From Polaribacter sp. KT25b (GTDB lineage: Bacteria; Bacteroidota; Bacteroidia; Flavobacteriales; Flavobacteriaceae): DNA of 64,000 nucleotides. Of this stretch, positions 30,276 to 39,531 are shown in pieces. A program made the position numbers and the translations under genes. Where the stretch lies: contig NZ_LT629752.1 in the NCBI RefSeq assembly GCF_900105145.1, forward strand, positions 868,001 through 932,000, read 5' to 3'. Numbering within the stretch: the first letter of the stretch is position 1; each line of letters opens with the position of its first letter. The notes beneath the pieces are model-generated. The model was given only the letters and a program-made list of their open reading frames with translations. It was not told the origin of the DNA and searched no databases.

Positions 30276-31106
30276 TTAATTTATATTTACTGTCATTGTT
30301 TTGTAAGTACTTTTTTTAATTGTATTTGAACTACTTGTAGCTAATGGAGTTCCTTCTACTTGAAAAATATAATTTCCACTTTCTGTTATAAAAGTTAAAT
30401 CTGTACCATAAAACTTATTTGTATATGAAGTATTAACATTATGAATATCTACTCTACCTAATGCATTTAAGTCTGTATCATACACAACCATTTCTAGTTT
30501 AAGATCTTGGCTAAACCCCTGTGAAAATCCAACATAAATATCTTCATTTTTATAAATTGCAGTTGGTCTTGTAAAGTCTGTTCTTGATGTTTTAAAAGTT
30601 AAATTATATAAGTATTCTGAATGATCTGCATCGTATACGTAATATGTTCTTTCTCCTTGGTTTGGTCTATTATTTATAATAACCTCTGTATTGCTATCTT
30701 CTTCTAAAACATACGCTTGGTAAGTATCTGGAACTGCATCAAATTCGGCATTATCAAATTTTAAAATAGTGTCTCCACTATTATTAACCTCATCAAACGT
30801 TAAAGCTACTTTATATTCATTTTCTAAATAATCTCCTTTAATAACAATACTATAATTATAAGCATCATTATAATTTTCTACTTTAATAATAGGTACAAAA
30901 CTATTATTGGTTACATCTCCAAACTGAATGTTTGTATAGCCATTATCACTATAACTTGTGTGCGACTCAAAATTTGCAGCTGTAATACTTTGTTCTTTAA
31001 TAACATCATCTTCATTGTTTGAAGAGCATGAAGCAAATACCATTGTGATAGCTAATACTACTAATTTTGTTACGCTAACTAATTGTGTTTTTTTAAAATT
31101 TTTCAT
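30276..31106 (-). CDS. Secreted lipoprotein of unknown function, HTCS-regulon candidate
   Basis: This 276-aa protein has a lipoprotein signal (VVLAITMVFASCSSNNEDD). The mature part is beta-rich with many aromatic residues (NDAYNYSIVIKGDYLENEY, YIFQVEGTPLATSS) and looks like one or two immunoglobulin-like or jelly-roll modules; I do not recognise a named family. The key observation is its promoter region: four direct repeats and a -7 box at 31134-31228, laid out exactly as upstream of 34699-35748. It is therefore likely co-regulated with that operon. Confidence 0.65.
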   Translation of the reverse strand: MKNFKKTQLVSVTKLVVLAITMVFASCSSNNEDDVIKEQSITAANFESHTSYSDNGYTNIQFGDVTNNSFVPIIKVENYNDAYNYSIVIKGDYLENEYKVALTFDEVNNSGDTILKFDNAEFDAVPDTYQAYVLEEDSNTEVIINNRPNQGERTYYVYDADHSEYLYNLTFKTSRTDFTRPTAIYKNEDIYVGFSQGFSQDLKLEMVVYDTDLNALGRVDIHNVNTSYTNKFYGTDLTFITESGNYIFQVEGTPLATSSSNTIKKSTYKTMTVNIN

Positions 31107-31133: not shown

Positions 31134-31228
31134 CAAATCTATTAGTAAACAGTTATTTACGTCATTCAAAAACCATCTATTTGAGTCAAAAAGTAACTAT
31201 TTATTTCAAAAAGCAACCATTTGAGTCA
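31134..31228 (-). promoter_or_regulatory. Four-site direct-repeat operator and promoter (array A)
   Basis: Sites on the + strand start at 31155 (ATTTACGTCA), 31179 (ATTTGAGTCA), 31199 (ATTTATTTCA) and 31219 (ATTTGAGTCA); spacings are 24, 20 and 20 bp. The minus-strand -7 box TAGATTTG is at 31134-31141, 13 bp from the first site. Array B has the same spacings and the same 13-bp distance. Confidence 0.75.
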
Positions 31229-31338
31229 TTTGTGGTTTTTAATCTAATTTATGCTGAAAAAGTATCAATAATCATTTTTTTTAAAGCATAAAAACAACCT
31301 GTTTTATTATAAAAATATTATTTATAGCAGGTTTTGTT

Positions 31339-31555
31339 GATTAATAAGAACAAAATAATAGTCATAGCTTAAATCGTAATAAAAACTTTATGAATTAAAA
31401 AGATGGTGAAATCTTTATTAGTGCTTTTTATCGATAAATTTAAAATGTAATTGTCGCATTTTTTTGATTAGTAAGAACATTATAATGATGATAGTTTGTA
31501 TCCTCATAAAACTTTACCAATTAAAATGATAATAAAATTTTTATTTATACTCTAT
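31339..31555. repeat. Diverged tandem duplication, ~127-bp period
   Basis: A segment beginning GATTAATAAGAACA at 31339 recurs as GATTAGTAAGAACA at 31466, and both copies continue with ATAGT, then AAAACTTTA and AATTAAAA in the same order. The copies are diverged and no reading frame is kept. It lies in the 568-bp gap 31107-31674, otherwise filled by array A and a terminator. Confidence 0.5.
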
Positions 31556-31622
31556 TAAAGGCTTTACAACTTTAATAATTACTGGTAATAATATTTTTAT
31601 ATTCTATTTATATGACAGCAAA

Positions 31623-31652
31623 AAACCTTGTAGGCTTTCGCTTACAAGGTTT
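31623..31652 (-). terminator. Terminator of the leucine-rich-repeat gene
   Basis: AAACCTTGTA pairs with TACAAGGTTT over a 10-nt loop; on the minus strand the stem leads into TTTTTTGC. It lies 23 bp after the stop at 31675. Confidence 0.85.
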
Positions 31653-31674
31653 AAAAACAAACTAACTACTATTT

Positions 31675-34653
31675 TCACTCTTTCATAAAGCGTTTAGAAG
31701 AAACTGCACCATCTTCAGTTTCTATTTTAATTAAATATATACCTTTATTTAAGTTAGATGTTGTAATATTTTTTGATGAAGTTTCTAAAACCTTTGTACC
31801 CAATACAGAATAGATAGTTGCACGTTTTAAGTTGCTATCCATTTTTATATTTAAAACTGAAGTTGTTGGGTTTGGGTATATAGAAACCGTATTTAAACTA
31901 AAATTATCTGTGCTTAATGCTCCACAATTTGTACTAAAACTTGTTTGTGCATCTATATTTGTCCAGTTGGCATCACTATAAGCAACATCATCTACAGTAA
32001 CACAAGTAAGGTTAGGATTTGTACCTGCATAAAAACTTGCGTTTACTATATTACTGTTATTACCATTTGCTACATTTAAACTCGTTAATTGGTTAATAGC
32101 ACAAGATAATCTTGTTAAAGCTGTATTATTAGAAAGATCTAAACTTGTTAATTGATTATTAGAACAATGTAACTGTTCTAAAACCGTATTATTAGAAACA
32201 TCTAGACTTGTTAATTGGTTATTAAAACATTGTATTTGTTCTAAAGCCATATTATTGGAAACATCTAAACTTGTTAATTGGTTAATATATAAAGTTAAAA
32301 ATTCTAAATTTATATTATTAGTAACATCTAAACTTGTTAATTGATTGATATGGCACCATAAGTTTATTAATAAGGTATTTTGGGAAACATCTAAACTTGT
32401 TAATAAATTACCATTACAAGCTAAGGTTGTTAAAGCAGTGTTAGCAGAAACATCTAAACTTGGTATTAAATTATTGGCACAATCTAAATATGTTAAAGCT
32501 GTATTATTAGAAACATCTAAACTTGTTATTACATTACCATTACAAGCTAAGGATGTTAAAGCTGTATTGGTAGAAACATCTATACTGCTTATGTAGTTAT
32601 TATAATTACAATTTAACTCTGTAATATTAATAAATGCCTCAATACCTGTTAAATAATTAATCGTTAAACTACTAACGTCTATTGTTCCAGTAAAAGCACT
32701 TGCTTCACTACATTGTATTTCTGTATCCCCGTTTGTGTTTATTGCTGCGTTACCAACTAAATACGTTTTAAATTTTGTGTCTGGTATGTTTACGGTACAA
32801 GTTGTACAACTTGCACTATAAGTAGCAGTAGTATCTTTATACCAATCAGTTGGCGAAGTGCCTACAATAGCAGCATCTACCTCAATACAAGTTAACGCCG
32901 TATTATCTGTAGCATAAAAAGAGGTCATATTTCCATTATTTCCATTGGCTATATTTAAACTTGTTAATTGGTTCTCATTACACCATAATAATACTAAATT
33001 TGGTTGCGCAGAAACGTCTAAACTCGTTAATTGGCAATCAGTAGCAAAAAAGTCCTCTAAAGCGGTGTTAGTAGAAACATCTATACTCGTTAATTGGGTT
33101 CTACTAATAGCTAGCCTTACTAAAGCAGTATTAGCCGAAACATCTATACTTGTTATTGGGTTTGTATCAAAATCAAGTTCTGTTAAAGCTGTATTACTTG
33201 AAACGTCTAAACTCGTTAATTGGTTAGTATGACAACTTAAATTAGTTAAAGCCGTGTTAGCCGAAACATCTAAACTCGTTATTTGGTTTTCACCACATTT
33301 TAATTCTGTTAAAGCAGTGCTAGAAGGAAGGTTTATACTCGTTAATTGGTTGTCTCGACAATCTATACTTGTTAAAGCTGTAAAAGCTTCAATACCAGTT
33401 AAATCTGAAATATTTAAAGATATAGCAACTATTGAACCTGTAAAAGCAGTTGCTTCACTACATTGTATTTCTGTATCTCCATTTGTATTTATTAATGAAT
33501 TACCTACTAAATATGCTTTAAAATTTGCGTCTGGTATGTTTACGGTACAAAGTGATGCTACTTCTGTTACACTTTTAAAACCAACCCAACCTGCTGTAGT
33601 ATAAGCCGTTGTTGTATTTTCTGGTATGGTTAAATCTGTATCAATATTATTATTACTAAAAGTAAAACTTAATAATGTTGCTGGTGTTGTACTTTTTGAA
33701 GTAACGTCTGTTAAATAATAATTATTTTCAAATGCAGAAGCTCCAATAGTTGTTACAGACTCAGGAATGGTGATACTTGTTAATGAATTATTTTTAAAAG
33801 CAGCAGCTCTAATAGTTGTTACAGATGCAGGAATGGTAACATCTGTTAATGAATTGTAATCAAAAGAAGCATCTCCTATAGTTGTAACATTATAAGTAGA
33901 TCCAGAATTAGTAACTGTTGCTGGTATGCTAATTGTAGTGCTTGTTCCTATATAATCATAAGTAGCAACGATATCATTATTTGTAATGTCTAATATTTGA
34001 TAAACGATATCATTTTGAGTAAACGTATAATCAATTGTATTAATGGTATTAAAACCAACCCAATTGGCATCTATATATGTCTGTTCTAAACCAACTGGTA
34101 TTGTTAAATCTATACTATTATTGTTATCAAAAACACCACTTAATAAAAATGATGGGTTTGTGCTTTCTGAAACAACTGATACTAAAGATGAATTATAATT
34201 AAAAGCATAAGCACCTATAGCCGTTACAGATGCAGGAATGGTAATATTTGTTAATGGGTTATAACTAAAAGCACTTTGTCCTATTGAAGTTACAGAATTA
34301 GGAATGCTAACACTTGTTAATGAATTAAAAAGGAAAGCATCTTCACCTATTGAAATTATTGAAGTAGGAATGCTAACACTTGTTAGTGAATTTGAACGAA
34401 AAGCTTCTTCTCCTATCGAAGTTACATTATACGTCGTTCCAGAAAAAACGGTTGAAGGTATGGTAGGTGTAAAATTATTTACATCTAAGTAGTCTATAAC
34501 AGCGACTTCTCTAACAGAAGAAGCATTTGCTGAACCTGCTACAGTTATTTGATATTTAAAACCACCTACTGTAAAGATAGTTCCAACAGTTTGTTGTGCA
34601 TTTGCCACCATAGCAACAAATGTTACTAAGAATAAAATTAATTTTGTTTTCAT
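31675..34653 (-). CDS. Leucine-rich-repeat surface protein with T9SS sorting domain
   Basis: This 992-aa protein has a signal peptide ending at VANAQ. Residues ~80-375 hold BspA/LRR_5-type repeats (SLTSVSIPTSIISIGEDAF pattern). Two blocks follow, each opening with CTVNIPD and NTNGDTEIQCSEA, then ~21-residue repeats of the type LTSLDVSNNTALTYLDCAN: ~375-625 and ~630-900. The last ~75 residues are a type A T9SS sorting domain (VSIYPNPTTSVLNIK to the final SSKRFMKE). It is exported by T9SS to the surface or medium. BspA-type repeats often mediate adhesion, so this is a candidate binding protein. It lies 45 bp after 34699-35748 and is probably co-transcribed from array B. Confidence 0.9.
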   Translation of the reverse strand: MKTKLILFLVTFVAMVANAQQTVGTIFTVGGFKYQITVAGSANASSVREVAVIDYLDVNNFTPTIPSTVFSGTTYNVTSIGEEAFRSNSLTSVSIPTSIISIGEDAFLFNSLTSVSIPNSVTSIGQSAFSYNPLTNITIPASVTAIGAYAFNYNSSLVSVVSESTNPSFLLSGVFDNNNSIDLTIPVGLEQTYIDANWVGFNTINTIDYTFTQNDIVYQILDITNNDIVATYDYIGTSTTISIPATVTNSGSTYNVTTIGDASFDYNSLTDVTIPASVTTIRAAAFKNNSLTSITIPESVTTIGASAFENNYYLTDVTSKSTTPATLLSFTFSNNNIDTDLTIPENTTTAYTTAGWVGFKSVTEVASLCTVNIPDANFKAYLVGNSLINTNGDTEIQCSEATAFTGSIVAISLNISDLTGIEAFTALTSIDCRDNQLTSINLPSSTALTELKCGENQITSLDVSANTALTNLSCHTNQLTSLDVSSNTALTELDFDTNPITSIDVSANTALVRLAISRTQLTSIDVSTNTALEDFFATDCQLTSLDVSAQPNLVLLWCNENQLTSLNIANGNNGNMTSFYATDNTALTCIEVDAAIVGTSPTDWYKDTTATYSASCTTCTVNIPDTKFKTYLVGNAAINTNGDTEIQCSEASAFTGTIDVSSLTINYLTGIEAFINITELNCNYNNYISSIDVSTNTALTSLACNGNVITSLDVSNNTALTYLDCANNLIPSLDVSANTALTTLACNGNLLTSLDVSQNTLLINLWCHINQLTSLDVTNNINLEFLTLYINQLTSLDVSNNMALEQIQCFNNQLTSLDVSNNTVLEQLHCSNNQLTSLDLSNNTALTRLSCAINQLTSLNVANGNNSNIVNASFYAGTNPNLTCVTVDDVAYSDANWTNIDAQTSFSTNCGALSTDNFSLNTVSIYPNPTTSVLNIKMDSNLKRATIYSVLGTKVLETSSKNITTSNLNKGIYLIKIETEDGAVSSKRFMKE

Positions 34654-34698
34654 AATTTAATGTTTTTAATATTTATTTTTTCGTTTTTTAAGGCTTAA

Positions 34699-35748
34699 TT
34701 ATCTTACAGTAATGGTGTTACCACATCCAGAATTTTTACTGTACACTTTTGTATTGGTAGTTGTATTATTTACTTGTATATATGCATCTTGACCACAACT
34801 CCACTTTACAGAACCTCCAGTACTAATTTTTGTTCCTCTGTTCTTGCTTCCACTACGTGCTACATAAATAGCACTTCCGCTAGTATTTCGTAGCGTTACA
34901 AAATCTGCTTTTTGACGACTTTGATAATTTGCTTCGTTTTGTCTTTTTCTGCGCTCTAAGTCTTTCCATTCTGGTGTAGCTTTTACAGAATCATTATATT
35001 TTTTAGCTTCTGCATAAGATGCATCTTTGGCTGCTTTTTCTTTTGCCATTTTGTTTTTAGTAAGGTTTGCAACGTTTGTATCTGATTGTTTTTGGGCTGC
35101 AGTTCTACCTTCTTGTTTTGCTTTCATGGCAACTAAATAATCAGTAATTATTTTGTCCATATTCTTATTTTTGAACTCTTTATATTCAGATCCAAAAACA
35201 CCTGCAGATCCTAAAGCTTGATTTTTTAACGCTTTCATTTTTGAGAAAAAAGAATTTTTCTTTTTGGTCTTTTTCTCAGTATCAGCTTTTTCAGGTTTTC
35301 CTGCTTTAATATATACAGCATTAATACCTTTAAAAGTGGCAAATTTTGTTGAAACTCCTTTAAGAGAAAAAACATAATCGCCAATAGATACATAGTAATA
35401 ACGATAACCCCAATCTTCTCCACTTATAACAGATTCATAAGGATATCCTTTACATTCTATTTTTTTATCAGAAATATCAACTGTAAAATCAGTTTCTCCT
35501 TTTTTTGGACCTTCTTGTAGAATAGTAGAAAATTTATAACCTTCTCCTGTTGGTAAATATTCTTTTTTAAATTTAACAGGAGTTCCTCTTTCTTCGGCCT
35601 TGTAAGTTCCATTGCCCGCTTTAGACATCTTTATATATACATTATATATATCGTCTTCAGAAATGTTATCAAAAAAGCTTTTTTGTGCTTGTGTTACTGT
35701 AGCAACTAATAAAACGATTGCTAAAATTATTTGTTTCATTTTTTTCAT
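34699..35748 (-). CDS. Secreted protein of unknown function, HTCS-regulon candidate
   Basis: This 349-aa protein has a signal peptide (IILAIVLLVATVTQAQ). The N-terminal ~150 residues are beta-rich. The middle (~150-265) is lysine-rich and helical with coiled-coil character (KMAKEKAAKDASYAEAKKYN). The C-terminal ~60 residues form a small beta domain with a Cys pair (KWSCGQDAY and NSGCGNTITVR). I do not recognise the family. A start three codons downstream (MKQIILAIV) is equally possible. It is the first gene of an operon with the leucine-rich-repeat protein and sits directly behind operator array B. Confidence 0.65.
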   Translation of the reverse strand: MKKMKQIILAIVLLVATVTQAQKSFFDNISEDDIYNVYIKMSKAGNGTYKAEERGTPVKFKKEYLPTGEGYKFSTILQEGPKKGETDFTVDISDKKIECKGYPYESVISGEDWGYRYYYVSIGDYVFSLKGVSTKFATFKGINAVYIKAGKPEKADTEKKTKKKNSFFSKMKALKNQALGSAGVFGSEYKEFKNKNMDKIITDYLVAMKAKQEGRTAAQKQSDTNVANLTKNKMAKEKAAKDASYAEAKKYNDSVKATPEWKDLERRKRQNEANYQSRQKADFVTLRNTSGSAIYVARSGSKNRGTKISTGGSVKWSCGQDAYIQVNNTTTNTKVYSKNSGCGNTITVR

Positions 35749-35788
35749 TTGTATTGTTTTTGTAATGATATTAGTTTGTTTTTCGTTT

Positions 35789-35883
35789 CAAAACTATTAC
35801 TAAACAAGCATCTAAATCATTCAAAAAACATCCATTTACACCATAAAACTACTATTTAGGTCAAAAAACAACCATTTGGGTCA
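35789..35883 (-). promoter_or_regulatory. Four-site direct-repeat operator and promoter (array B)
   Basis: Sites start at 35810 (ATCTAAATCA), 35834 (ATTTACACCA), 35854 (ATTTAGGTCA) and 35874 (ATTTGGGTCA), spaced 24, 20 and 20 bp. The minus-strand -7 box TAGTTTTG is at 35789-35796, 13 bp from the first site, and is preceded by TGTTTAGTAA as in array A (TGTTTACTAA). A lone related site ATATGAGTCA is at 35917-35926. Confidence 0.75.
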
Positions 35884-35998
35884 AACTGATGTTATACTTA
35901 AAATTTAACAAAATATATATGAGTCATATTTAGTTTATATAAGTTAATTATTTACTGCTATATTTATTATATATACAAGTTAATTAAAATTAAAAATT

Positions 35999-36073
35999 AT
36001 GAAATTAAAAGGATTGTTACTCGTATTATTGGTTAGTGCTTTACATATAAATGCACAAGATTATAGTTCGTAA
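35999..36073 (+). CDS. 24-codon orphan signal-peptide reading frame
   Basis: ATG to TAA encodes MKLKGLLLVLLVSALHINAQ plus four residues: a complete signal peptide with almost no mature part. It is either the remnant of a lost secreted-protein gene or a tiny leader. It lies between arrays B and C upstream of the hybrid regulator. No homology can be judged at this length. Confidence 0.35.
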   Translation: MKLKGLLLVLLVSALHINAQDYSS

Positions 36074-36080
36074 ACCTACG

Positions 36081-36131
36081 TTTTGAGTTATTTTAACAAC
36101 TAATAGGGTCAAAAAATGACCATTTGAGTCA
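36081..36131. promoter_or_regulatory. Three-site direct-repeat array C
   Basis: Sites start at 36081 (TTTTGAGTTA), 36102 (AATAGGGTCA) and 36122 (ATTTGAGTCA), spaced 21 and 20 bp, in the same orientation as arrays A and B. No -7 box is found at the 13-bp distance used there. The array may serve autoregulation of the regulator gene at 36468 or be left from a lost gene. Confidence 0.55.
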
Positions 36132-36416
36132 AAAAACATTTTAGAAGAGTATATTTGTTTAAAAAAAAGATATTTTTACAAAAAAAAGAATTGTGTTAAA
36201 ATCAGGTATTTTTGGTTGCTTTGTTTGTTAAAATTAAAGATGTTTTTTGTTAGATAATAATGAAATTATTAAAATCAATTACCATAGAAATCAAAGATAT
36301 AGGGATGTCTCTGTAGTTTAAAACCTAGCCAATCTAAGTAGAAACTTCAATCATTTTCTTTAAAAAAAACTGTATTTAGATGCTCGTTTTAATGGGGATG
36401 ACAATTTTAACAGAAA

Positions 36417-36437
36417 CCTTGAGGTAAAGCCTCAAGG
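36417..36437 (+). terminator. Hairpin upstream of the hybrid regulator
   Basis: CCTTGAGG and CCTCAAGG pair perfectly around TAAAG, followed by AATTGTTTT. It lies 30 bp before the ATG of the regulator, so it would end a transcript arriving from the orphan signal-peptide region, or act as an attenuator in the leader. The rest of 36132-36416 shows no gene. Confidence 0.6.
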
Positions 36438-36467
36438 AATTGTTTTCGATTAATATTTAATTTATTT

Positions 36468-38642
36468 ATGAAAAAAAAATACGAAAGTATAATTGCCCTA
36501 GGAACAAAGGATAGTTTTTCAAATAGCCTAAATAAAAGAATACGTTTATTAAATACCTATTGTCTAGTTTGGGGACATGTAATTTTGTTATTTTTAAGTT
36601 TAGATGTAATTGTTGGTTTGGTACTTGAAACAATTAGCCAAAACACCATTACTTTAGATTTTTTTGATTTTAATATGTTTTTAACTCATTTATATATATT
36701 AATTTTACTAATACTCATACTTTTTCTTAATAAACGGTTTCTATTTAAACCGGGGCGTTTTGTCTTTATAACTACTGTTATTATTGCAAATTTATATGCT
36801 TCACTTATTATTTCTCCAGGTAGTTATATAGAATATTATTTCTTATTAATTTCGCCTATTGCTATTACACTTTATCAGAAAAAAATCACATCATACTTAT
36901 TTTTAGCAATTGGTTTCTTATGTTTTTTAACACCTTATTATATTTACATCGTTTATCCACCAGATTATGTTGATAAATTAATAATTCTAGAAACCGCTTG
37001 TATTTTTGTAGTTATACACCTTTTGGTAAATTATTTTAAAGCAAATAATTTAAAATATGAAAAACTTTTAGCATTAGAAAGAGATAAAGTGCTTTCTGAT
37101 AAAATAATACTTGAAAAACAAGAAGCAGAATTACGCGAATTGAATGAATTTAAATCGCATTTTTTTGTAAATCTTTCTCACGAAATACGTACACCTTTAA
37201 CATTAATTCAGGGATATACAAATCAATTAAGCTTTAAAGATTCTGATACAGAAAACAAGCAGAAAGCAACTATTATTAAAGAACAATGCCAACAAATGCA
37301 AGATATTATTAATAGTATCATGGATTTAAGTAAAATGGAAAGTGACCAATTTCAATTGATAAGTGAACCTGTTGATATCAATTCCTTTTTAGAAAAACAT
37401 TTTACAGATTTTCAAAGTCTTTTTGCTAAAAAAAACATAGATTTTGTATTTAATAACAATACTTTAAAAACAACCATTTTAGTTGATGAAAAACTGTTTT
37501 CTAAAGCAATAACCAATTTATTAAGTAATGCCTTAAAATTTACACCTGCAAACGGACACGTTTCTATGAATACTGCTTTTACTGATGAAGGTCTTAAAAT
37601 TGATGTTATAGATTCTGGAACGGGCATACACATAGAAGAAAAAGAAGCTATTTTTAATCGTTTTTATCAAGTAAAAAATGATATTACAAAAAGTCAAGGT
37701 AGTGGTATTGGCTTAGCTTTTACAAAGAGTATTGTTAATGCTCATCATTTTAAAATCGCGGTAAAAAGTAGTTTTGGTGAAGGATGTTGCTTTACCATTT
37801 CGATACCAAAAACATTTGTAAACTCTACAGTTAATCAATCATCAACAAAAATACTTGATACTTTAGACAACATTGAAGTAGCGACTACTAATATTAAAAA
37901 ACAATCAAAAACAATTTCAATAAATAAAAAGCAAAAAATACTTGTAGTAGACGATCATGTTCAAATGAGAGTGTATTTAAAAAAAGTTTTACAAAATTAC
38001 GATGTTACGGAAGCTGAAAATGGAAAAGAAGCGCTTCATATACTTCAAAATAATAGTTTCGACCTAATTTTAACAGACTATATGATGCCTGTTATGGATG
38101 GAGAAGCTTTAGTAAAACAATTAAAAAAGCAACAAAACAAAACACCAATTATAGTACTTACTGCAAGAACAGATCAACAAGGAAAACTATCTATGTTGCG
38201 TTTAGGTATTGATGGTTATTTATACAAACCTTTTATGGAAGAGGAACTTTTAATTAATATTAAAAACTCTATCTCTCTTTATAAAAATGTAATAGAATTT
38301 GATAAAGGAAAATCTCCCGAAGTTTTAAAAAGTTTAAATGAATATGCAGATAAATTTAATACTAAAATTACATCTTATATTAACCAAAACATAAATTCGC
38401 CATTACTTACAGTAGATACTATTTCTGAATATATGAAAGTTTCTAGAAGCACCTTAAACCGAAAAGTAAAAAGTATTCTTGGTCAAACTGTTAATCAATT
38501 AATACAAGAGGCGCGTTTAGAAAAAGCCCGAAATTTAAGATCAGAAGATCCTTTTGCATCTAAAAAGCAAATTGCAGAAGCTGTTGGTATTACAAACTCT
38601 ACCTATTTGTTTGATAAACTAAAAGAACGTTATGGTACTTAA
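36468..38642 (+). CDS. Hybrid two-component system protein: membrane histidine kinase, receiver and AraC HTH
   Basis: This 724-aa protein has six hydrophobic segments at residues ~30-190 with no large periplasmic sensor. A short coiled coil follows (~195-228), then HisKA with His238 in NLSHEIRTPL and an HATPase domain (~340-450; SGTGIHIEEKE, GSGIGLAF). A receiver domain lies at ~488-605 (KILVVDDH, phospho-Asp in LTDYMMP, Lys in YLYKPF) and an AraC-type DNA-binding domain at ~630-724 (ISEYMKVSRSTLNRKVK). It thus senses and regulates in one polypeptide. Most HTCS proteins have a large periplasmic domain; this one must sense through its membrane part. Flanking 20-bp direct-repeat arrays are its probable binding sites. 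Confidence 0.93.
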   Translation: MKKKYESIIALGTKDSFSNSLNKRIRLLNTYCLVWGHVILLFLSLDVIVGLVLETISQNTITLDFFDFNMFLTHLYILILLILILFLNKRFLFKPGRFVFITTVIIANLYASLIISPGSYIEYYFLLISPIAITLYQKKITSYLFLAIGFLCFLTPYYIYIVYPPDYVDKLIILETACIFVVIHLLVNYFKANNLKYEKLLALERDKVLSDKIILEKQEAELRELNEFKSHFFVNLSHEIRTPLTLIQGYTNQLSFKDSDTENKQKATIIKEQCQQMQDIINSIMDLSKMESDQFQLISEPVDINSFLEKHFTDFQSLFAKKNIDFVFNNNTLKTTILVDEKLFSKAITNLLSNALKFTPANGHVSMNTAFTDEGLKIDVIDSGTGIHIEEKEAIFNRFYQVKNDITKSQGSGIGLAFTKSIVNAHHFKIAVKSSFGEGCCFTISIPKTFVNSTVNQSSTKILDTLDNIEVATTNIKKQSKTISINKKQKILVVDDHVQMRVYLKKVLQNYDVTEAENGKEALHILQNNSFDLILTDYMMPVMDGEALVKQLKKQQNKTPIIVLTARTDQQGKLSMLRLGIDGYLYKPFMEEELLINIKNSISLYKNVIEFDKGKSPEVLKSLNEYADKFNTKITSYINQNINSPLLTVDTISEYMKVSRSTLNRKVKSILGQTVNQLIQEARLEKARNLRSEDPFASKKQIAEAVGITNSTYLFDKLKERYGT

Positions 38643-38742
38643 AAGTAATTGTTTGTCTTCAAAATATTAAAACCTGTTAGAATTAAATAGTTTTAAGGGT
38701 AATTGTTAACTAAAAACTACAATTCACAAAAAGTTCGTAGTA

Positions 38743-39482
38743 TTATATTTCTCTACAAAAGACATTTATTGAATCACTAATTTTCTTGACAGTTCTCTTT
38801 CGAAAACCTTCCACATAAATAGTATCTTTATCAAACTTTATTTTTGTAATAGCTGAGGTGTTTTCGGTATTTGCCATTCCTTTAAAAGTAAGGTAATATA
38901 CATTATCCAACATTTTATAAGTACCATTATGATTATGGTCGTTAAAGAATGCTTTAATGTTTTTGTAAGGATTAATTACCTCTAAAAACTGATTTCTATT
39001 CCTTAGATTATCATTATCAATTGGAAAAATAGGGAAGTGAGAATAAAAAGCTACTTTTTGCTTTTTCTGTAATGCTTTGTCGAGTTCTTTTTTAAACTAG
39101 TTGATTTGTGTTTTGCCTAAACCATCATCCTATTTTTTAAGTATGGTAGGTTTTTTATCTTTTAATATATTGAAAAGAGAATCTGTTTGTTGTTCTTTTT
39201 CTTTAGTTAAAGTTACATAAAAACTAAAGACGTTACCATCTAAAACTATAAATTTCCAATCGTTTTCTATAAAGCTGTAATATTTATTTTTGATATTTAA
39301 CTTGTTTAATAATTTTTGTTTGCAGCATCTTTTAATCTTTGAGGTAATATTTTGTAATATCTGTTCCATTTTATGGCACTATCACAATATTTACACTCTG
39401 CAATTACACCTACTTTAAATATAGTTTTTTTAGAACAGTTTGTAATTGATATTTGTAAAAATAGAATTAGAAGTTTTTTCAT
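38743..39482 (-). pseudogene. Decayed metallophosphoesterase gene
   Basis: A start with signal peptide (MKKLLILFLQISITNC) and the family opening IFKVGVIAECKYCD is at 39482. The coding trace continues in other frames through YYSFIENDWKFIVLDGN, GLGKTQIN-stop-FKKELDKALQ and VAFYSHFPIFPIDNDN, then FNDHNHNGTYK, to a stop at 38743. The trace resembles ADP-ribose/CDP-alcohol diphosphatase-like calcineurin phosphoesterases. There is at least one frameshift, two in-frame stops, and an internal deletion that removes the metal-binding core (GDxxD and GNHD regions). It cannot be functional. It fills the gap between the hybrid regulator and dnaK. Confidence 0.8.
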
Positions 39483-39531
39483 ATTTATCAATAGTAATCA
39501 AAAAGATAATTTCTGTAGTTATTTGCACAAA

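Follow-up and report, generated by a model that had tools for sequence, protein, structure and literature searches.

In this work, a 64,000-nucleotide stretch of the Polaribacter sp. KT25b genome (contig NZ_LT629752.1, positions 868,001 to 932,000; hereafter the window) was analyzed, in which two promoters share an operator of four tandem sites (arrays A and B) and stand close to the gene of a hybrid AraC-type regulator (Table 1). Our results indicate that this membrane hybrid kinase probably activates a few surface-protein genes through the four-site promoter unit. As a part of this reading, and with the same likelihood as the whole, the regulon in the window genome appears to be small, with two promoters and three genes. 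A small dedicated regulon had been proposed in a first-pass annotation of the window, and it is well supported by comparison, because the array is conserved in 11 genomes and tracks the regulator; binding and activation are predicted steps of the model.

Anatomy of the promoter-operator units

Arrays A and B are 95-bp promoter-operator units on the minus strand, which is also the coding strand for the genes behind them. In the unit, TGAnTCAAATrGTTG-like sites start at positions 1, 21, 41, and 65, all in one orientation, and a TAnnTTTG box lies at 88-95, so that the site spacing toward the gene is 20/20/24 in both arrays. The four-site spacing of the first-pass annotation (24/20/20 in the opposite direction), with 13 bases to TAnnTTTG, was found in both arrays, as was the TGTTTA.TAATAG motif reported beside them. 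Several sites are weak matches to the site given in that annotation, ATTTGAGTCA, and the pooled site on the coding strand is TGATTCAAATAGTTG. With a site profile from other genomes, the fourth site scored 15.1 (A) and 11.9 (B) at position 65, and -5.7 (A) and 1.4 (B) at position 61.

Arrays A and B are the sole full copies in the window genome. The window contains 4 matches to a two-site pattern with up to three mismatches: two lie in A, one in B, and one in the half array C (see below), compared with 0 in 100 shuffles. The genome-wide search for sites that had been suggested was run with this two-site pattern, and gave 3 places (A, B, and C) against 0 in the reversed control. A 95-bp profile from 15 arrays of other genomes scored A at 115.1 and B at 97.9, while the best place more than 60 bp from both reached -33.3 and overlapped array C. 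Similarly, R1, a sequence-only 95-bp model built from A, B, and the G004 and G114 arrays (G, C, and L are our numbers for genomes, contigs, and loci), placed A and B first in the 3.95-Mb single-contig genome (E values in Table 1), followed by array C at 0.004 and then by values of at least 0.36. An exact 14-base site pattern, run over 28 loci, matched only the four loci that come from the window genome; it was too narrow, and the 95-bp model was used instead. General repeat finding around the G004 regulator did not pick up the array there.

Conservation of the array in other genomes

An R1 search of 24 chosen sources gave 34 matches up to E 0.5, including 20 arrays below 2e-9 in 11 genomes; four of the 20 were the training set of R1. 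Two arrays each were present in the window genome, Polaribacter vadi (G574), and Lacinutrix algicola, three in G476, five in G004 (on four contigs), and one each in G114 (recorded as Ulvibacter), G515, G547, G440, Oceanihabitans, and Winogradskyella ludwigii. In addition, weak arrays (2.6e-5 in both cases) adjoin a 45% regulator relative in G121 (L042) and a 44% relative in an Aquimarina metagenome-assembled genome (MAG), the latter covering model positions 10-64. Among the 14 weaker matches, array C, L042, and L124 were regarded as meaningful; the other 11 were not kept, five of them being opposite-strand matches to arrays. One of the 11, a weak match at L123:3738-3833 (minus strand; E 0.014), reaches the -7 box end 95 bp before a 105-aa secreted-looking open reading frame (ORF), and is possibly a third, degenerate Lacinutrix array. 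In a set of 21 genomes, some match up to E 0.1 was found in 14, and values below 0.001 only in G004, G114, and G121; the matches of the remaining genomes were treated as chance.

The 20 strong arrays and the weak G121 array, for which the TAnnTTTG box was part of the search pattern, were compared as a set of 21. The length is 95 bp in 18 of these, 96 bp in two, and 92 bp in one. By count, TAnnTTTG closes all 18 of the 95-bp arrays, and by eye it closes the other three as well. In 20 of the 21, an ATG frame of 20 codons or more begins 23-69 bp past the -7 box. The frame behind the array of G004:C136 (L029) is a 26-aa remnant, and in G004:C21 (L115) the next gene starts 137 bp from the array. 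The regulator is directly divergent to the array in 9 of the 21 (at L111 it is cut by the contig end). The proteins behind the arrays begin, judged by eye, with an apparent signal peptide or lipoprotein signal. The sorting domain Por_Secre_tail is present in the leucine-rich repeat (LRR) protein of the window and in scanned proteins of G476, G515, Oceanihabitans, Winogradskyella, Lacinutrix, G547, G114, and G004:C136, and in the window, Winogradskyella, and G114 the gene that carries it is the second one after the array. In two G004 proteins truncated at contig ends, only LRR or InlB-repeat domains were seen. Where the sites were looked for in orthologous promoters, as the first-pass annotation had advised, the array and its spacing were thus found in the 11 genomes before secreted-looking genes (once a gene remnant).

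Co-occurrence of the array and the hybrid regulator

Of 166 genomes of the genus, 7 have arrays with E < 2e-8, 6 have a full-length regulator with an identity of 44% or more, and 5 have both (hypergeometric 1.3e-7, kinship ignored). Each of the five genomes with a full-length regulator at least 48% identical has the array, and the remaining 161 have a strong array in only two cases, G547 and G440. In a family sample of 397 genomes, arrays below 1e-5 were present only in the window genome (G000) and G114, and the same two have regulators of at least 75% identity. Matches of 1.9e-4 to 9.7e-4 occurred in 13 further genomes, one of which is G121; the other 12 were treated as chance as a group, uninspected one by one. 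Stricter filters (more than 40 genomes) were used in the genus and family searches, and 25 or 10 candidates were scored per genome. In G476, one array (C1:633423) and the regulator (C1:3358225) are separated by 2.7 Mb of contig, or by 1.8 Mb if the contig is circular, suggesting that the link between array and regulator is more than neighbourhood. In G464 the regulator is in fragments, one 88% identical and another 68% identical with a stop (L116:8774-9854), and neither an array below 0.001 nor a 152-aa or 349-aa gene was found at the limits used. In G440, the 349-aa-type gene behind the array is split by a frameshift. A weak match in G468 (5.4e-4) spans the junction of two ORFs and was treated as chance.

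In a tree of 31 relatives of the regulator, a clade of 13 (support 100/100) is separated from a clade of 18, and 11 of the 13 are labelled array-bearing, counting G121 as weak and G547 as partial. The 300 bp upstream of 20 relatives of about 33-44% identity, four of which are closely related Tenacibaculum, were tested against shuffles. Direct repeats at 20 or 21 bp (the two periods tested) were found at p ≤ 0.015 in 13 of the 20 upstream regions. The same p was reached by 18 of 150 control upstream regions (drawn from 193); among ten listed significant control regions, five are arrays or the same repeats. The period is 20 bp in the Aquimarina member of the first clade and 21 bp in the other 12; in G435, for example, TCACAAATCGTTCAA recurs after 21 bp, and G021 has close variants of it. 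Of the 20 relatives, 17 have a divergent ORF (100 aa or longer) that starts within 600 bp, and in about 15 this ORF has an apparent secretion signal by eye; upstream of G265 and G420, neither a significant repeat nor a divergent ORF was found. Repeats and divergent genes in such distant relatives suggest that the general plan, a regulator and a divergent secreted-protein gene with tandem repeats between them, seems older than the four-site array.

Several observations weigh against regulation of the arrays by the hybrid regulator. The co-occurrence counts ignore shared descent or transfer, and weak arrays may be missed given the stricter filters and the few candidates scored. The array of G440 is present without the regulator, and no match to the membrane domain was found in that genome. 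G547 is a MAG, 80% complete, in which the contig ends within the kinase next to the array; the N-terminal part of this kinase had no match to the query membrane domain at E 0.001. G008 has a 44% regulator relative but no array by the model, and 7 of the 20 distant upstream regions had no repeat at p 0.015. Furthermore, LytTR-like response regulators were seen by eye in 6 of 16 array-bearing loci (L029, L042, L107, L114, L115, and L119). LytTR sites are direct repeats about 21-22 bp apart, a period similar to that of the arrays, and another regulator of this kind might bind them; the DNA-binding fold of LytTR proteins is different. However, no LytTR-like regulator was seen in the other 10 of the 16 loci, nor in the window among the listed ORFs (100 aa or longer) between 24 and 44.5 kb. 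The presence of the array follows that of the hybrid regulator, to which the arrays are often directly divergent (see above), and most distant relatives of this regulator have repeats of their own in the corresponding place. Binding by another regulator is therefore considered quite unlikely.

The hybrid regulator

HisKA, HATPase_c, Response_reg, and HTH_18 all scored above the Pfam cut-off in one chain, and the regulator belongs to the broad hybrid histidine kinase/receiver/AraC class. Residues 1-211 had no Pfam match at E up to 1. The hydropathy profile contains five distinct hydrophobic segments and no long loop; the first segment fits one or two helices. This membrane domain is conserved: W35, G118, E122, P156, and Y163, among others, are invariant over 38 aligned proteins, and residues 1-215 have matches in 43 database clusters (E up to 1e-5). 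Taken together, the lack of a long loop and of a Pfam match and the conserved N-terminal domain indicate that the regulator has no periplasmic sensor but a membrane input domain. The term "sensor-less" in the first-pass annotation is thus right as to the periplasmic domain, and overlooks the conserved membrane domain of five or six helices. In G008 (C3:4738-6550; L162 and L163), neighbouring 409- and 423-aa frames match the input domain weakly (28% and 27%), perhaps representing this domain in another protein context.

Proposed mechanism

In Bacteroidota, the established -7 consensus is TAnnTTTG (PMC7366714; PMC9723704), and the box that ends the arrays agrees with this sigma-A element. According to the available text of the first report, a -33 motif was not identified in Flavobacterium johnsoniae (PMC7366714). 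In Flavobacterium psychrophilum, the -7 box has been placed at -12 to -5 (PMC9723704), and with this placement the start points of the array sites fall near -99, -79, -59, and -35. The site closest to the box, which is shifted by 4 bp, covers the position of the -33 element; no TTTG is present there, and the nearest one lies at about -41 to -38. A proximal site over a -33 region without TTTG suggests an activator role for weak promoters.

We propose that the regulator is anchored in the membrane and would read a signal through its input domain of five or six helices, after which phosphate would be passed to its own receiver. The AraC-type domain would then bind the tandem TGAnTCAAATrGTTG sites of single orientation, four of which form one rigid 95-bp unit with the sigma-A promoter. 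The regulator would be an activator required by these weak promoters, standing in for the missing -33 element, and the predicted output of the regulon is secreted surface proteins. Repression, with an array that is mainly autoregulatory, would be in keeping with the position of the array between regulator and target in 9 of the 21 cases and with the half array retained upstream of the window regulator. It is nevertheless unlikely, since the sites lie upstream of the -7 box, in the place of the -33 region, and do not overlap the start site, and since 12 of the 21 arrays lie away from the regulator.

Table 1. Positions of the described features in the window.
Feature	Position	Strand	Remarks
-7 box of promoter A, TAGATTTG	31134-31141	minus	Gene ATG 27 bp farther on
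Operator array A	31155-31228	minus	Four sites; R1 E 5.4e-24 in own genome
276-aa lipoprotein-like gene behind array A	30276-31106	minus	Lipobox by eye
-7 box of promoter B, TAGTTTTG	35789-35796	minus	Gene ATG 40 bp farther on
Operator array B	35810-35883	minus	Four sites, spacing as array A; R1 E 3.0e-22
349-aa secreted-looking protein, first gene behind array B	34699-35748	minus	No family match
992-aa LRR protein with type IX secretion system (T9SS) sorting domain, second behind array B	31675-34653	minus	LRR_5, LRR_4, Por_Secre_tail
Remnant (24 codons) of 152-153-aa gene	36000-36074	plus	Full-length in five other loci, divergent to array
Array C, half array	36067-36131	minus	Two clear sites (20-bp step), then a weak third after 21 bp
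724-aa hybrid regulator	36468-38642	plus	Membrane domain ~25-190, HisKA 229-292, HATPase_c 340-448, receiver 491-598, AraC-type helix-turn-helix 653-723

Genes behind the arrays and history of the locus

Distinct secreted-looking genes stand, as judged by eye, behind arrays A and B, in agreement with the first-pass claim that the two promoters drive different secreted-protein genes; promoter activity and secretion are predicted here. P. vadi and G476 also have arrays that are followed by genes similar to the 276-aa gene (276 and 284 aa, respectively). The 349-aa protein had no match in Pfam (E up to 0.1), NCBIfam (0.1), or PDB sequences (1). Its family comprises at least 148 database clusters (E up to 0.001), of which 120 were listed and 49 aligned, and has two invariant cysteines in the C-terminal part. 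The LRR gene is assumed to be co-transcribed with the 349-aa gene from promoter B. On the other side of the regulator, at 38738-39483 (minus strand), there are gene remains that resemble, by eye, a 295-aa secreted-looking gene of P. vadi at the corresponding place (L107:17189-18076); no open frame of 100 aa was listed there.

Array C, which had been described as a third operator, does not follow the same code. It corresponds to model positions 1-64 of 95, and the 24/20/20 spacing is lacking because the array is partial, without the promoter part. It sits where relatives have an array divergent to the regulator, and it aligns with the regulator-side half of the regulator-facing array in four relatives. 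The window source is a flavobacterium near P. vadi, whose regulator is 81% identical. The order in P. vadi is lipoprotein-like gene, array A, regulator, LRR gene, 350-aa gene, array B, and 152-aa gene, and in the window the block of LRR gene, 349-aa gene, array B, and truncated 152-aa gene is placed between array A and the regulator. The 152-153-aa secreted-looking gene is divergent to an array and 350-aa gene at L041:11567-12025, L107:16673-17131, L109:7841-8302, L110:14135-14596, and L114:747-1205; in Lacinutrix, a gene of this type (L123:4385-4843) lies downstream of a 327-aa gene instead. At E 1e-5, the window genome yielded no second copy of the 152-aa gene. P. vadi has a second, diverged pair of 350-aa (52%) and 152-aa (26%) genes elsewhere (G574:C33:28930-30425).

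The genes behind the regulator-divergent array differ among genomes. They code for a 276-aa lipoprotein-like protein in P. vadi and an fn3 protein in G476. In both G515 and Lacinutrix the products are LamG proteins, in both G547 and Oceanihabitans they are LRR proteins, and Winogradskyella has a 349-aa protein with an LRR protein. In G004, a 26-aa remnant is followed by a large InlB-repeat protein, and in the window the half array adjoins the truncated gene. Based on these differences, we tentatively suggest a fixed switch with an exchangeable output, in which the regulator and the four-site promoter stay, the surface-protein gene behind them is replaced repeatedly, and one membrane signal controls a changing surface coat; this idea is rather doubtful at present. 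Replacement behind the promoter would perhaps occur by recombination at the arrays. The different gene order around the arrays in the window and P. vadi, and the half array at the junction, might also be explained if the arrays were a repeat family without regulatory function, or recombination sites, dispersed together with surface-protein genes. However, their fixed distance to TAnnTTTG and the start codon, their single orientation to the gene, their low copy number, and their link to the regulator make this very improbable.

Relation to known systems and significance

AraC and XylS activators bind two tandem sites by the promoter and are soluble ligand-binding proteins. Like the arrays, their sites are direct repeats about two turns apart with the proximal site at the -35 region; the present system differs in having four sites and a hybrid kinase.

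In Bacteroides thetaiotaomicron, two-site direct repeats with an average distance of 21 bp have been predicted for 16 of 36 hybrid regulators of glycan loci (PMC3878776). As far as the available text of that report goes, the hybrid two-component systems (HTCS) of Bacteroides polysaccharide utilization loci (PUL) similarly combine kinase, receiver, and AraC-type helix-turn-helix in one protein with predicted direct-repeat operators (PMC3878776). The repeats of about 21 bp are apparently a shared trait, with 20 bp in the present clade and 21 bp in 12 of the 13 more distant relatives that have significant repeats (20 and 21 bp tested). In contrast to Bacteroides HTCS, which have a large extracytoplasmic sensor and are mostly found with susC/susD, the window regulator lacks a large periplasmic sensor and has a membrane input domain. 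Its predicted targets are surface proteins: lipoprotein-like, secreted-looking, and LRR-T9SS genes stand behind A and B instead of adjacent susC/susD and glycan-degrading genes. The two-site repeats of Bacteroides also differ from the four-site 20/20/24 operator, which is in fixed register with the -7 box. The first-pass annotation had mentioned AraC repeats about 21 bp apart and considered the operator code undescribed. Repeats of this period had already been predicted for hybrid AraC regulators (PMC3878776), whereas the four-site fixed version looks new. In searches of open-access PMC texts aimed at regulators of this kind, four-site operators, or surface-protein targets, no description of this system was found among the titles and abstract starts listed. 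The four-site fixed operator, the membrane input domain, the surface-protein targets, and the different genes behind one conserved array all look new.

In F. psychrophilum, fish plasma induces a group of 17 LRR genes arranged in tandem, and no regulator is named in the available text of the report (PMC9723704). If the proposed regulation is true, hybrid AraC regulators would extend from sugar loci to secreted surface proteins. The strict operator can be searched in any genome, the loss of the regulator together with decay of the target offers natural experiments, and the signal of the membrane-embedded input domain may be approached with a simple reporter. The system would thereby bear on the control and exchange of adhesin-like proteins in marine flavobacteria.

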